From positions 1 through 33,935 of IMG/VR virus record IMGVR_UViG_3300042294_002378: a stretch of 33,935 nucleotides of DNA; one strand, written 5' to 3'. Source of the stretch: a virus. Every line of letters starts with the position of its first letter. Position 1 is the first letter of the stretch. The position numbers were made by a program, and so were the translations under genes. The notes under the pieces were generated by a model. The model did no database searches and was not told the DNA's origin. It saw only the letters and a list, made by a program, of their open reading frames with translations. Positions 4,098-30,702 of this stretch are shown piece after piece.

Positions 4098-4736
4098 TTA
4101 GTGTTGCGCTTTAACGCGAGCAGCAGATCGGCCCAGCGAACTGACAGTGTTGTTACGGGCGTTTGCAATGGCGCCTTCAAAACGTGTTCGACGGTCTAGC
4201 CCGTTGGCCGGATCAGACCACGGCTTATTGGGCATAAGCATCAATTTGGCAAGTGCGCCGTCAGCCAATGCGTAGATGTATTGGCTAAAAATCCATTTCG
4301 GAAAACTGGTGGCGCTTTGACTTGGTTGCAGTGCCAGTGTCATGGTTAGCCCTTTGTAGATATTGGCTTCTGGGATACCGGCCAAGATGATTTGATCGGT
4401 ATCGATTTGGGCGTAATACTTGGGCGTTGTCTGGGTTGTGCGCCAGCCTGGTATTTCTGCATCCAGTTGGATAATGGTTTTGGCTTCCAGTGGCACGTTG
4501 TTGTGCAGCGCGTTCATTACCACCGAGACATCCGCGCTCGCGGGCGGTTCAAGGTCGTAATAGGCTTCACCCGCCACCACGTCAATAGGGTCAGGCAGAT
4601 ATTGCCAAATCCAAGAACCCGCGCAAAAATCAATTACCGCACGCTTGATTGCGTTTTCGGTCACAGGGTCGGACGGGTCAGCGTTCAAAGACGGCAACAC
4701 CTCGTCGAGCAGTTCTGAATACTTGATATTTGCCAC
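4098..4736 (-). CDS. putative neck/adaptor protein
   Basis: The 212-residue protein starts at GTG 4736 (VANIKYSELLDEVLPSL). Helical N- and C-terminal parts flank a beta region (YYDLEPPASADVSVVMNAL; the conserved-looking PKYYAQIDTDQIILAGIP). The pattern 'helix - W..LP - Y.L..P - Y......L.L..IP - ..Y..ALADGAL..L' resembles phage head-tail connector proteins encoded beside DUF6682 adaptors. The C-terminus (TRFEGAIANARNNT then basic residues) fits this. It is upstream of the adaptor in the same operon. The family name is uncertain, but a neck role is likely from context. Confidence 0.55.
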   Translation of the reverse strand: MANIKYSELLDEVLPSLNADPSDPVTENAIKRAVIDFCAGSWIWQYLPDPIDVVAGEAYYDLEPPASADVSVVMNALHNNVPLEAKTIIQLDAEIPGWRTTQTTPKYYAQIDTDQIILAGIPEANIYKGLTMTLALQPSQSATSFPKWIFSQYIYALADGALAKLMLMPNKPWSDPANGLDRRTRFEGAIANARNNTVSSLGRSAARVKAQH

Positions 4737-14557: not shown

Positions 14558-14920
14558 TTACTCCACAGACTCAAACAGCCTTTGTTTCAACTCGTAACCC
14601 ATCAACGGCCAAATTTTGTTGACTGCATTTTGACGGGCAATCTTTCTGCCGATTTCAGCATCAAAATTTTCGCGGCTGGCGCAAGCTGATTCGCCTGTAA
14701 CAGTAAAGCCGTTATTTAAAACTAATACACAGAAAGTCAACATACCTAGCGTTGTGTGATCGTCATCAGGTACTTCTACGCCTTCTCCGTTACCATTAAC
14801 GCCTTGCCGTGCAACAAAGTAGTAACCGCTTTTGATATTTGCTTCAATATCCGCTGGCGTTACGCGCGGAGCTGTTAAGCCTTTGTTTAGGATTTCTTGT
14901 TCGATTTGTTTATCTGACAT
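14558..14920 (-). CDS. Gp49-family phage protein (N4 gp49 / Sf6 gp66-like)
   Basis: The 120-residue protein contains the segment TFCVLVLNNGFTVTGESACA followed by FDAEIGRKIARQNAVNKIWPLMGYEL, which is an unmistakable match to the family named after N4 Gp49 and Sf6 gene 66 (PF13876). Its function is unknown, though the family is widespread in tailed phages, often near lysis or late genes. It has ATG 14920 and a CGGA site about 8 bases upstream. The stop TAA is 4 bases before the endolysin start, and the endolysin ribosome site overlaps its end. Confidence 0.85.
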   Translation of the reverse strand: MSDKQIEQEILNKGLTAPRVTPADIEANIKSGYYFVARQGVNGNGEGVEVPDDDHTTLGMLTFCVLVLNNGFTVTGESACASRENFDAEIGRKIARQNAVNKIWPLMGYELKQRLFESVE

Positions 14921-27304: not shown

Positions 27305-27835
27305 ATGGCAGCATTGAACGGCTTTGACGCAAGTACAGTACCGGAACAGGAATCTTTTGACGCCCTACCCGAAGGGCAATATGTGGCAATCATTACAGAG
27401 TCGGAATTCAAACCGACAAAAAACGGCCAAGGCCAATATCTTCAATTTGTCTTTGAAGTAATCGACGGCCAATTCAAAGGCCGCAAACTATGGGCACGTT
27501 TGAATCTGCAAAACCACAACAAAACAGCGGTGGATATTGCACAGCGCGAACTGGGTGCAATCTGCCGCGCGGTGGGGATCATTCGTCCGAATGACTCGGC
27601 TGAGTTGCACAACAAAGCGATGCTGGTAACGGTGGGCGTTGAACTTGACGATAGAAACCGTCAAGCCAACATCATTAAGAAATACGAATCAGCAATCGGT
27701 GGAGCGCCAGCGATGCAACATGCGCCTGCACCTGCACCGGCGGCTCAAGCAGCACCGGCGACAGCCCCTTGGGGACAACAACCAGCACCAGCACCGGCAC
27801 CGGCAACACCGAATGGCGCAGCCCCTTGGCAATAA
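27305..27835 (+). CDS. DUF669 protein (SSB-like partner of recombinase)
   Basis: The 176-residue protein has AAGGAGTG before ATG 27305. DALPEGQYVAIITESEFKPT, then GQYLQFVFEVIDGQFKGRKL and WARLNLQNHNKTAVDIAQRE are typical of DUF669 phage proteins, which resemble OB-fold single-strand DNA-binding proteins. The end is an Ala/Pro/Gln linker of about 45 residues (HAPAPAPAAQAAPATA, PAPAPAPATPNGAAPWQ), as seen in SSB tails but without the usual acidic tip. It probably loads or stimulates the Sak4-like ATPase. O5 sits at its promoter position. Confidence 0.8.
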   Translation: MAALNGFDASTVPEQESFDALPEGQYVAIITESEFKPTKNGQGQYLQFVFEVIDGQFKGRKLWARLNLQNHNKTAVDIAQRELGAICRAVGIIRPNDSAELHNKAMLVTVGVELDDRNRQANIIKKYESAIGGAPAMQHAPAPAPAAQAAPATAPWGQQPAPAPAPATPNGAAPWQ

Positions 27836-27856
27836 TCTTTTAACAGGAATACAGAA

Positions 27857-28066
27857 ATGGCATTAAATCCAGCACAAGTAGTGGTCAAGTATGAATTGAA
27901 TCTTGACCAGGTTAATTTAATTTTGGCCGCTCTTGGCAAACTACCGTTTGAACAAGTTGATCAATTGGTCAACGGTTTTCGTTCGATTGCCTTGAATGCG
28001 TTGCGTGAGGCAGAAATTGCCAACGATGCAGCCGAAGTCAATCAAGAAAGCGAAGAAACAGAATAA
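27857..28066 (+). CDS. small phage helical protein
   Basis: The 69-residue protein has AGGA 8 bases before ATG 27857. ELNLDQVNLILAALGKLPFE and QVDQLVNGFRSIALNAL is a recurrent phage protein phrase (short helical protein with no assigned function). The acidic tail (NQESEETE) ends with a TAA that is the first part of the large hairpin 28065-28102. It is the last coding gene before the RNA region. Confidence 0.65.
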   Translation: MALNPAQVVVKYELNLDQVNLILAALGKLPFEQVDQLVNGFRSIALNALREAEIANDAAEVNQESEETE

Positions 28067-28102
28067 ACACACATAGTTTCACCTCCTTTGATATGTGTGT
28101 TT
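28065..28102 (+). ncRNA. 11-bp stem-loop with anti-Shine-Dalgarno-like loop
   Basis: AAACACACATA (28065-28075) pairs perfectly with TATGTGTGTTT (28092-28102). The 16-base loop contains TCACCTCCTTT (28079-28089), the same as the 3' tail of 16S rRNA (UCACCUCC plus U residues). It opens the RNA region and starts in the stop codon of the 27857 gene. The loop could pair with the AAAGGGGG ribosome site at 28906-28913, or mimic the ribosomal tail. On the minus strand the loop reads as AAAGGAGGTG before an ATG (28074), but that frame has only ten codons. Confidence 0.7.
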
Positions 28103-28209
28103 GGCGCCCGACTAACGCCTGACAGCCTGGAAAGACAGGCACCCTGACCCATGCGCGTTATGAGGGTGCATCGGCCAAGGTCGTGATGTCCTTTGGAAGT
28201 CCTGTACTT

Positions 28210-28236
28210 GCCCTGCTTTGATAGGGGGCTTTTTTT
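28210..28236 (+). terminator. terminator-like hairpin with T-run inside the RNA region
   Basis: GCCC-T (28210-28214) pairs with A-GGGGGC (28223-28229), with one bulged G, followed by seven T residues (28230-28236). It would stop many transcripts from the DUF669 operon. Together with hairpins at 28103-28119, 28125-28140 and 28141-28167 (ACCCT/AGGGT) it makes the segment 28065-28236 a compact structured trailer. Anti-termination may be needed to reach the exonuclease. Confidence 0.65.
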
Positions 28237-28905
28237 GAATTCGGCAGCAATGCCAATCCGCCGCCAGTCGGTCAACTGGTTTGTAGTGCTCTCAAGCTGT
28301 GAAAAACGCTCGGTCGGTGGCTCACGGCACCGCATATAAGCCCGTGATAGTTTGTTTAGCGTGATTACTTTCGTGGATATTCTGATTCACGCTAAAACCG
28401 AGCAACGTCCGCGCTGGCGACGGTAAAAAGGCCAGCACCATCACGCATGTTGATTGAAGCGTACCGTGAAACAACCTGAAATTGTGGCAACGGTGGGAAC
28501 CGCTACCTTGGATAACGCCTAAATGCCAAGCAGTCAACAGCCGTGATGGTTAATGCGTAGGCTGATACGCAACAAAAGATAAGGTGTAGTTGGCCGTAGT
28601 AGTCCTACAAGCTTGCTACATAACCGCTTTTGACGGGCAAAGCCAGAGTTTAGCACTGGCAACCATCAGATAGAAGGAATAAGACACGCGATTCCGCTTT
28701 TCCGTCGGAGCCAGTTGTTGAATAAACGGAACCTAAGCTGGTCGGGTAAGTACCAGCACTATGAAGGAATACCACTGCCTGTAATAGAAGGACAGGTCGG
28801 AGTGCGGAAACGTGGTCGTAGTGGTATTCACTTGATGGTGAACGCATGACATGAAGGCCACATGAGCAAGGTTTGCAACCTGCCACCATCACTAACCAAT
28901 TTCCT
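28237..28905 (+). ncRNA. large ornate structured RNA candidate (GOLLD/ROOL-like or new)
   Basis: About 670 bases with no plausible gene carry a dense series of perfect helices: GGCA-GCAA-TGCC (28243-28254, GNRA loop), CCAGT/ACTGG (28264-28279), TCACGG/CCGTGA (28322-28347), TTTAGCGTGA/TCACGCTAAA (28355-28396, 10 bp), GCTGGC/GCCAGC (28413-28436), CGGT-GGGA-ACCG inside GTGG/CTAC (28484-28506), CTTGG/CCAAG (28507-28530), TGCGTA/TACGCA (28554-28571), GCCAG/CTGGC (28642-28660), TTCCGT/ACGGAA (28700-28731), GCTGGT/ACCAGC (28737-28757), GAATACCACT/AGTGGTATTC (28767-28829, 10 bp, enclosing CCTGT/ACAGG and GCG-GAAA-CGT), TGATGGTG/CACCATCA (28833-28891, enclosing AGGTT/AACCT). GNRA loops on the plus strand set the orientation. 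Size and phage context resemble GOLLD; no known RNA class (RNase P, tmRNA, group I or II intron) is evident. Confidence 0.75.
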
Positions 28906-28918
28906 AAAGGGGGATAGT

Positions 28919-28957
28919 ATGAGTTTGAACAAAAAAACAGGTGTTTTTCATGCCTGA
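28919..28957 (+). CDS. 12-codon leader ORF
   Basis: ATG 28919 has a strong AAAGGGGG site 5 bases upstream (28906-28913) and encodes MSLNKKTGVFHA before TGA 28957. The exonuclease start (28950) lies inside it. This gives translational coupling, and the strong site may be masked or exposed by the preceding RNA. It could be only a spurious start site. Confidence 0.45.
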   Translation: MSLNKKTGVFHA

Positions 28958-30026
28958 TATTTCACAAAACATTGATCCGATTGTTAGCGAGATTTATCAG
29001 CAGTACGAAAAACAGTACGGAACAGAAAAAGCCCGTACCTATCTTGGTGCCAGCATTATCGGTCGAGAATGTAAGCGTGCCCTGTGGTACGGCTTTCGCT
29101 GGGCAGCTAAAGAACAGTTTGACGGTCGATTGCTCAGACTGTTTCAAACAGGCCACCTAGCAGAACCGCGTTTTGTCGCTGATTTGCGATCCATTGGGGC
29201 TACCGTTCACGAAGTCGATCCCAACACCGGCAACCAGTTTGCCTACTCCGACTTAGGTGGGCACATGCGCGGCAACACGGACGGCGTGGCACAACATATC
29301 CCCATGGGCGGCAAGCGTTGGCATGTGTGCGAGTTCAAAACACATGGATCAAAGTCGTTTGCCAAGCTCAAAAAGGAAGGCGTCAAGAAAGCCAAGCCGG
29401 AACATTGGATACAAATGAACACTTACATGGGCTGGAGTGGCATTGATCGAGCGCTTTATCTTGCCGTTGATAAAGATACCGACGAATTGCACTCAGAACG
29501 TCTTGAGTTTGAACCGTTGGAATTTGAGCGCACCAGGGTGAAGGCCGAATCCATCATTTTTGGTGGCGAACCACCAGCAAAGATAAGCGACGATCCAAAG
29601 TTCTACCTGTGCAGTTGGTGTACGTTCAACAAGATATGCCATAGCCATCAGGTGCCAGCCGTTACCTGTCGTTCGTGCGTTCATTCCACACCGGAACGCG
29701 AAGGTGATGGTCGATGGTCGTGCGCACATTGGAAACAGCCGTCAATCCCCGTTGATTTTCAGCGCGTCGGTTGTGATCAGCATCTACCGTTACCGTTTTT
29801 GCTGACCTATGCCGAAGCGGTAGACGCGGGTGAAGGCTGGATTGGTTTTGTGCGTAAAGACAACGGTGCGCAATTCTTAGTTGCCGTGCCGAGTGTAACA
29901 ACATTACACACCAACAACCCTACTTACACCACGCATGAAATTAGCGCCGCAGCCGATCATCGGGTTATTTGCAACGCGGGAATTGATGAAATTAGAACGG
30001 CGTTTGGCGCGTCGATTAAAGGTTAA
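28950..30026 (+). CDS. Cas4/RecB-like PD-(D/E)XK exonuclease with Fe-S cysteines
   Basis: The protein has 358 residues from ATG 28950 (AGGTG 6 bases upstream; GTG 28941 is an in-frame alternative). Nuclease core: GNTDGV with Asp 111, then VCEFKTHGS with Glu 128 and Lys 130, and a QMNTYMGWSGIDRALYLAV helix/strand like the RecB motif. Cys 41 near the front (IIGRECKRALW) plus Cys 221, 224 and 230 (YLCSWCTFNKIC) have the Cas4/AddB 4Fe-4S spacing. A second Cys set follows (CRSCVHS..., CAHW, GCDQH at 240, 243, 258, 275). It should resect DNA ends for the Sak4-type recombinase. It is preceded by the RNA region and followed by the pentapeptide gene. Confidence 0.85.
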   Translation: MPDISQNIDPIVSEIYQQYEKQYGTEKARTYLGASIIGRECKRALWYGFRWAAKEQFDGRLLRLFQTGHLAEPRFVADLRSIGATVHEVDPNTGNQFAYSDLGGHMRGNTDGVAQHIPMGGKRWHVCEFKTHGSKSFAKLKKEGVKKAKPEHWIQMNTYMGWSGIDRALYLAVDKDTDELHSERLEFEPLEFERTRVKAESIIFGGEPPAKISDDPKFYLCSWCTFNKICHSHQVPAVTCRSCVHSTPEREGDGRWSCAHWKQPSIPVDFQRVGCDQHLPLPFLLTYAEAVDAGEGWIGFVRKDNGAQFLVAVPSVTTLHTNNPTYTTHEISAAADHRVICNAGIDEIRTAFGASIKG

Positions 30027-30042
30027 TTATTGGAAAACAACA

Positions 30043-30702
30043 ATGAAAATTGAAATTAAACACAGATTTACGCAACAAATATTGTTTTCGCATGAGCAGG
30101 ACAATAATTTTATGCAATTAACATTGCAACTTGCAGTTAAAGCCAAAATAAACCTGCGTGGTGCCGACCTGCGTTATGCCAACCTGCGTGGTGCCGACCT
30201 GCGTGGTGCCGACCTGCGTGGTGCCGACCTGGGTTATGCCAACCTGCGTGGTGCCGACCTGCGTTATGCCGACCTGGGTTATGCCGACCTGCGTGGTGCC
30301 AACCTGCGTGGTGCCGACCTGGGTTATGCCGAACTGGGTTATGCCGAACTGGGTTATGCCGACCTGGGTTATGCCGACCTGCGTGATGCCGACCTGGGTT
30401 ATGCCAACCTGCGTGATGCCGACCTGCGTGGTGCCAACCTGCGTGGTGCCGACCTGCGTGGTGCCGACCTGTTGTGTATGGGCGATATGGAATTTATTTT
30501 CACAATGCAATTCGATCGTTGGCCAATAGGTTTTACAAGAGATACGCTTCAAATTGGTTGCCAACGTCATTCGATTGATGATTGGAAAAACTTTGATGAT
30601 GAGAAAATAAGAAAAATGGATACAACAGCGTTTGATTGGTGGTGCAAATGGAAAGATCATATCTTTAAAACAATTGAACTATGCGTAGGAAAACAACAAT
30701 GA
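30043..30702 (+). CDS. pentapeptide-repeat protein
   Basis: The 219-residue protein starts at ATG 30043. Residues ~37-143 are about 21 consecutive A(D/N)LxG-type pentapeptides (mainly ADLRG, ANLRG, ADLGY), which fold as a right-handed square beta helix. The helix ends in ADLL followed by a non-repeat C-terminus (FDRWPIGFTRDTLQIGCQRH, DDWKNFDDEKIRKMDTTAFD, WWCKWKDHI), a tail common in phage pentapeptide proteins. Known members of the wider family mimic DNA and bind gyrase (MfpA, Qnr), but many phage ones are untested. The stop overlaps the dUTPase start as ATGA. An antisense frame through the repeats is a by-product of the 15-bp period. Confidence 0.85.
   Translation: MKIEIKHRFTQQILFSHEQDNNFMQLTLQLAVKAKINLRGADLRYANLRGADLRGADLRGADLGYANLRGADLRYADLGYADLRGANLRGADLGYAELGYAELGYADLGYADLRDADLGYANLRDADLRGANLRGADLRGADLLCMGDMEFIFTMQFDRWPIGFTRDTLQIGCQRHSIDDWKNFDDEKIRKMDTTAFDWWCKWKDHIFKTIELCVGKQQ
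30151..30471 (+). repeat. 15-bp tandem coding repeat array
   Basis: About 21 copies of a 15-base unit, GCC-GAC-CTG-CGT-GGT and close variants (GGT-TAT, AAC for GAC), encode the pentapeptide helix. Units are almost identical at DNA level, including synonymous positions, which implies recent expansion or gene conversion rather than old selection on protein alone. Length variation by slippage is likely. Confidence 0.9.

Follow-up and report, generated by a model that had tools for sequence, protein, structure and literature searches.

Modular phage RNAs with a tRNA-shaped unit form a widespread, apparently undescribed family

GOLLD is a large, ornate, phage-borne RNA that occurs near tRNA islands and has a variable region or linker that sometimes holds tRNAs (PMC12286853). 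ROOL is likewise a large phage RNA near tRNA islands, and the put antiterminator RNA of HK022 is also a structured phage RNA of early operons. The stable RNAs C and D of T4 (species 1 and 2; NC_000866), by comparison, are small non-tRNA molecules encoded in a phage tRNA cluster, and RNA C has a true T-arm at its end. The RNA family described here resembles GOLLD in size, in phage carriage and in the vicinity of tRNA islands; it differs in being an open-ended modular array, whereas GOLLD has a conserved 3′ domain.

Our starting point is positions 28237-28905 of a viral DNA stretch of 33,935 nt (IMG/VR record IMGVR_UViG_3300042294_002378), the whole of which we call the window. A sequence-only reading had proposed a large structured non-coding RNA here, in a region without a plausible gene. 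The latter point was borne out, as open frames do not exceed 84 codons on either strand and neither the ORFs nor a family search support a gene. The region is flanked by a small ORF without a known family and by the gene of a Cas4-like exonuclease (28941-30026, plus strand; phrog_1990, E=1.7e-100), which lies directly 3′ of the RNA and outside it; the RNA has the same orientation as these flanking genes. Upstream lies the gene of a single-strand DNA-binding protein (SSB; 27305-27835, plus strand; phrog_6015, DUF669). The nearby genes that were searched are Sak4, SSB, the Cas4-like exonuclease, dUTPase and helicase, and none of the RNA's neighbours is an RT or TnpB/IscB gene. In the same neighbourhood, positions 29935-30702 encode a pentapeptide-repeat protein that is also found in locus L010 (from position 4673); its repeat block has 256 versus 215 residues, the phages being otherwise near-identical.

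The stems listed in the earlier reading are present on the plus strand: two of 10 bp, TTTAGCGTGA/TCACGCTAAA (about 28355-28396, pairing 28355-28364 with 28387-28396) and GAATACCACT/AGTGGTATTC (28767-28776/28820-28829), and one of 8 bp with an inner stem, CCATCACG/CGTGATGG (28438-28445/28542-28549). The fold is more stable than that of shuffled sequences (z −2.9, 0/20), and the opposite strand is equally stable by this comparison (z −3.1). As both strands score alike, energy alone settles neither the case for a structured RNA nor its strand. Covariation was therefore decisive in the analysis of two building blocks, a hairpin module and a tRNA-like unit; it was judged against 500 shuffled and against slid structures, a procedure that only approximates per-pair statistics.

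The hairpin module (28437-28550, plus strand) consists of a foot, ACCATCACG/CGTGATGGT, a CA/GC internal loop, an inner stem, TGTTGATTG/CAGTCAACA, and a hypervariable tip (28457-28530). Its foot pattern, CACGCATGNNGATTG...CAGTCNNCAGYCGTG, has matches in at least 120 viral contigs and in only 4 of 84,980 species genomes. Among 137 modules we counted 118 distinct tips of 24-79 nt, while the two inner pairs that the pattern leaves free stay paired as GG/CC, AG/CT, CG/CG, GC/GC, GA/TC, AA/TT and others. In 24 distinct rows, pairing was 97.9% and the covariation score was 0.297, compared with 0.088 for shuffled (0/500) and at most 0.087 for slid structures; positions fixed by the pattern, being unable to vary, were excluded from this evidence. 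One U-G pair is constant in all 24 modules, the columns elsewhere covary, and G-U wobbles are frequent, which indicates that the pairing takes place in RNA and not in DNA.

The tips are exchanged even between close relatives. Two loci, L008, found through relatives of the exonuclease, and L009, found by a motif scan, have flanks about 97-98% identical to the window, and within an otherwise identical RNA they carry a different cassette of about 210 nt in the interior (about 28450-28665). The cassette ends compensate each other, with GTTGATTG/CAGTCAAC in the window and GGCGATTG/CAGTCGCC in L008. This swap, together with the few identical tips that recur in differing contexts, would also suit a DNA-level explanation, by which the imperfect palindromes are recombination sites of the integron attC type and the tips mobile cassettes. 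We regard this as highly improbable: the common G-U wobbles and the constant U-G pair point to RNA, there is no associated recombinase, and no integron core sites were recognised by eye.

The second building block, the tRNA-like unit (28545-28667, plus strand), has an outer stem, GATGGTT/AACCATC, followed by a 2-nt linker, a D-like hairpin, TGCGTA-GGCTGA-TACGCA, a variable arm and a T-like hairpin, GCCAG-AGTTTAGCA-CTGGC, that abuts the 3′ outer strand; the two loops kiss through GCUGA/UUAGC. The likeness to tRNA lies in the acceptor-like 7-bp stem, the linker and D-like arm, the T-like arm abutting the acceptor strand, and the elbow formed loop to loop. Differently from tRNA, contact at the elbow is made by a kissing helix of Watson-Crick pairs, GCUGAU/AUCAGC, and the unit has neither an anticodon arm nor a CCA end, no CCA having been found after the outer stem.

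The D-like anchor was matched in no fewer than 120 viral contigs. Of 145 such anchors, 122 are accompanied by a matching outer strand and an adjacent downstream hairpin, whose loop is mostly NTCAGY even though the search did not require this. The complementary loops GCTGAT and ATCAGC change jointly to ACTGAT/ATCAGT. A descriptor that specifies structure only and names no sequence found 20 units on the forward strand of 109 related regions, as against one on the reverse strand and one in shuffled sequence; applied to both strands of the whole window, its sole match was 28545-28667 on the plus strand. In an alignment of 32 rows, pairing was 97.1% and 11 pairs had changed on both sides (covariation 0.345, shuffled 0.159 with 0/500, slid at most 0.117). 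The kissing helix was 96.4% paired in these rows and includes a change from G-C to A-U, and covariation was seen in every helix of the unit as well as in the kissing pair. With the window held out, a covariance model trained on 28 units, R1, recovered 28545-28667 (66.9 bits, E=2e-16) and the variant unit of L008 (E=4.6e-7). Its second match in the window, 14675-14750 (E=0.24), was low-scoring and was taken as chance.

Since the covariation of both unit and hairpin module exceeds that of shuffles, we accept the structure, and 28237-28905 is confirmed as a real structured non-coding RNA. Its homologues show base-pair covariation and no conserved reading frame, the interior cassette being replaced between close relatives. 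The idea of a single conserved full-length RNA was dropped; the array is modular and can be aligned only block by block.

Outside the two building blocks, the 5′ domain (28237-28436, plus strand) contains the first 10-bp stem and, at 28405-28436, a pseudoknot of the H type (CGTC/GACG and GCTGG/CCAGC), which recurs in locus L139 with the compensatory change ACATC/GATGT. Elsewhere in this domain the few close relatives do not differ, so that covariation is uninformative, and the same holds for the 3′ linker domain (28668-28833, plus strand), whose hairpins, among them the second 10-bp stem, are assigned from sequence and fold. Two more H-type pseudoknots, GGTGTCCTC..CACCGGAAAAAGG..GAG, flank the array of L139 (2262-2300 and 2905-2940) and resemble the one in the window. 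At the 3′ end, 28834-28890 (plus strand) closes perfectly over 7 bp (GATGGTG/CACCATC) in the MFE fold and is possibly a second, shorter tRNA-like unit; R1 gave no match to it. At the other end the RNA may extend slightly 5′ of 28237, because an intrinsic-terminator-like hairpin with a T7 tract ends at 28236 (28210-28236, plus strand; a consensus match only, the region as a whole being not above chance) and a related hairpin motif, GACAGCCTGGAAAGACAGGCACC, lies upstream of it (28121-28143, plus strand).

This upstream motif recurs in phage RNA. Exact matches, with GARAGA loop variants, were found in 41 viral contigs, in which a hairpin module often follows directly 3′, and the motif is present in the crAss-like phage cr55_1 and in Pseudanabaena phage Pan5. 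In cr55_1 (L050), 1,150 nt without annotated genes (1206-2358) contain an exact TGACAGCCTGGAAAGACAGGCAC, which suggests that a large structured RNA is carried there. The hairpin GACAGCCTGGARAGACAGGC, with ACGTCTGAGAATGGACGT before it, also stands alone just 5′ of genes in other phage groups (L011, L012, L026, L034, L036, L040 and others). The half of the HK022 genome that was searched with its put RNA in mind had no copy of the shared 20-nt hairpin motif.

The foot of the hairpin module and the outer stem of the unit have one strand in common in the window, GATGG (28545-28549), which a pseudoknot-free fold assigns entirely to the module (p=1.00 vs 0.00). The tRNA-like form may thus need strand exchange or processing, and this predicted preference counts against the functional reading that we favour below. 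Free-standing units exist elsewhere, for example in L118 with an outer stem of 18 bp, which shows that module and unit are both real elements. The shared strand could act as a switch, and from this follows a rival account in which the RNA is a cis-regulator, the alternative pairing of GATGG upstream or downstream controlling termination or translation of the next gene. The terminator-like site before the RNA would suit it, as would L136 and L147, where a single hairpin module forms a 5′ leader between a promoter-like TTTTTTTTGGTATACACT and the ribosome-binding site. Yet the genes downstream are unrelated between phages (the exonuclease in the window, ban in P1, a holin in lambdoid phages), many arrays end in a terminator of their own, and no consensus promoter was found, so that we think this account quite unlikely.

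Comparison with known RNA families gave no assignment. A cmscan search with all 4,227 Rfam families had no match in the window at gathering score, a search of 27800-29000 with permissive filters (E≤10) returned chance matches only, and in about 40 related loci the sole families above gathering score were tRNA, C4 and isrK. The earlier proposal of a large structured RNA of a new class therefore stands, while membership in GOLLD or ROOL, its other suggestion, does not: the model of ROOL was unmatched at either threshold, and so was that of GOLLD, in the related loci as well. HEARO likewise had no match at these two thresholds, and the alternatives raised at the time, a decayed group II intron and an OMEGA-type RNA, found no match to the respective models. 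A hammerhead was considered owing to a CUGAUG core-like stretch in the D-like loop and discarded, as the surrounding sequence is not that of a hammerhead. A BLASTN search of cultured phages with all 961 nt of the region also gave no match, because conservation is limited to the short feet of the modules.

A scaffold or cage in the manner of GOLLD and ROOL could be envisaged, with pseudoknots and kissing loops holding multimers together and tips or linkers carrying tRNA-like cargo. A likeness to GOLLD (PMC12286853) is indeed seen in the size, the pseudoknot and kissing loops, the tRNA clusters and the pieces of tRNA embedded in these RNAs. A fixed cage is, however, ill-matched by a module number and order that differ freely between phages, down to lone units and the lone 5′-leader modules of L136 and L147, and with the missing Rfam match this makes a cage improbable in our view.

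Nor is the unit a decoding tRNA, since it lacks both an anticodon and a CCA end. ARAGORN found 0 tRNA genes in the window and, like the Rfam tRNA model, does not recognise the unit; in related phages that model matched only their true tRNAs. On T4, the descriptor finds a genuine tRNA, but neither it nor R1 finds a unit in rnaC or rnaD, and RNAs C and D differ from the present family in that neither fits the kissing-loop unit. Pieces of tRNA do at times make up third arms and hairpin tips (L124, L257, L139, L008). The variable arms of two units, in L124 and L257, consist of a tRNA D-arm and T-arm without an anticodon arm, and the cassette of L008, as read from its sequence, holds a T-arm, GTGAG-TTCAATT-CTCAC, along with a piece that resembles a D-arm, with no tRNA called by ARAGORN. 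True T-arms were found within these RNAs or next to them in 16 of 109 regions, some of the arms belonging to real tRNA genes, compared with 1 of 105 control regions.

Units occur in about 240 cultured-phage records, including P1, P7, D3, HK629, HK633, PAJU2, phiEt88 and numerous Klebsiella phages. At a loose threshold, 781 plasmid records matched as well, 328 of them over at least 80% of the query. A 171-nt stretch of P1 has matches in 844 of 5,426 complete E. coli genomes (16%), and among the matches listed nearly all have no annotated feature beneath. Random draws of species genomes yielded matches in 2 of 274 and 7 of 299, the starting genome counted in each; both are lower bounds, as few candidates were scored per genome. 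This distribution is the pattern of phages and prophages.

Many of these phages place the RNA in tRNA clusters. In viral contigs, a tRNA gene lies within 1 kb of 12 of 118 module loci (4.1 expected) and of 12 of 115 unit loci (5.0 expected), on the same strand in all 24. The P1 array runs from downstream of dmt through to tciA and includes tRNA-Asn and tRNA-Thr; the D3 unit sits between tRNA-Met and tRNA-Gly/Asn/Thr, that of phiEt88 13 nt before tRNA-Phe, and those of KP591P1 and HC6 beside the tRNAs of a cluster. Other settings are found in HK629, whose unit follows Q and pR′ and precedes the holin gene, and in L016, L025 and L038, whose arrays lie 3′ of an integrase gene with a terminator at the end. 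The P1 unit lies at about 69819-69916 of NC_005856 (L297). Two antisense ORFs annotated in this phage, plp and upl (69472-70041), run across both tRNA-Thr and the RNA array, and in D3 orf86 overlaps a unit; all three are probably not genes. A CRISPRi map of P1 found plp, upl, trnT, tciA and trnI nonessential on a laboratory host (PMC10695390).

The same-strand placement beside tRNA genes and the alternation of units and hairpins within arrays are what one would expect of maturation elements of phage tRNA operons, which would be spacers that fold co-transcriptionally, recruit RNase P/E/Z and hold adjacent tRNAs and genes in register, without a function in trans. This reading appears unlikely to us, since most loci, the window among them, lack a tRNA gene within 1 kb and the hypervariable tips would be left unexplained.

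The interpretation that we prefer, held tentatively and somewhat short of probable, is a modular phage RNA acting as a tRNA mimic that occupies host factors. In RNAs of this family, a hairpin with conserved foot and exchangeable tip alternates with the tRNA-shaped unit, in which the kissing helix stands in for the D-loop/T-loop elbow and the variable third arm for the anticodon arm. The RNA would be made together with phage tRNAs and matured like them, as RNAs C and D of T4 are, and might then occupy host factors that recognise the tRNA elbow, the likeliest targets being enzymes of tRNA processing or defence nucleases directed at tRNA; it would be in its hypervariable tips that the RNA changes under selection.

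Phage tRNAs are known to counter anticodon nucleases, and by analogy the mimic may possibly serve as a decoy for tRNA-binding host factors, a step about which we are more doubtful than about the mimicry. A counter-defence decoy agrees with the hypervariable arms and with the P1 region being dispensable on a laboratory host, as one expects of an accessory factor. Against it count that the window has no tRNA gene, its RNA lying among recombination genes, and that no defence system is linked to the RNA. Extended to all phages concerned, the arrays of P1, D3, lambdoid, Klebsiella and uncultivated phages might be diversifying tRNA decoys against host tRNA-targeting immunity, a generalisation that we advance with the same reserve.

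We are, in contrast, highly confident of the family itself and of its structure: tRNA-shaped modular RNAs are widespread in phages and apparently undescribed. The open-access literature that was searched contains no description of such an RNA family, though a paper behind subscription could exist. No Rfam family covers the unit, which is mostly unannotated or hidden under spurious ORFs such as P1 plp/upl and D3 orf86. What began as a metagenomic curiosity is now testable in the laboratory phages P1 and D3, and it bears on two old questions, the role of the non-tRNA stable RNAs in phage tRNA clusters, such as T4 RNAs C and D, and the reason why phages retain tRNA clusters.
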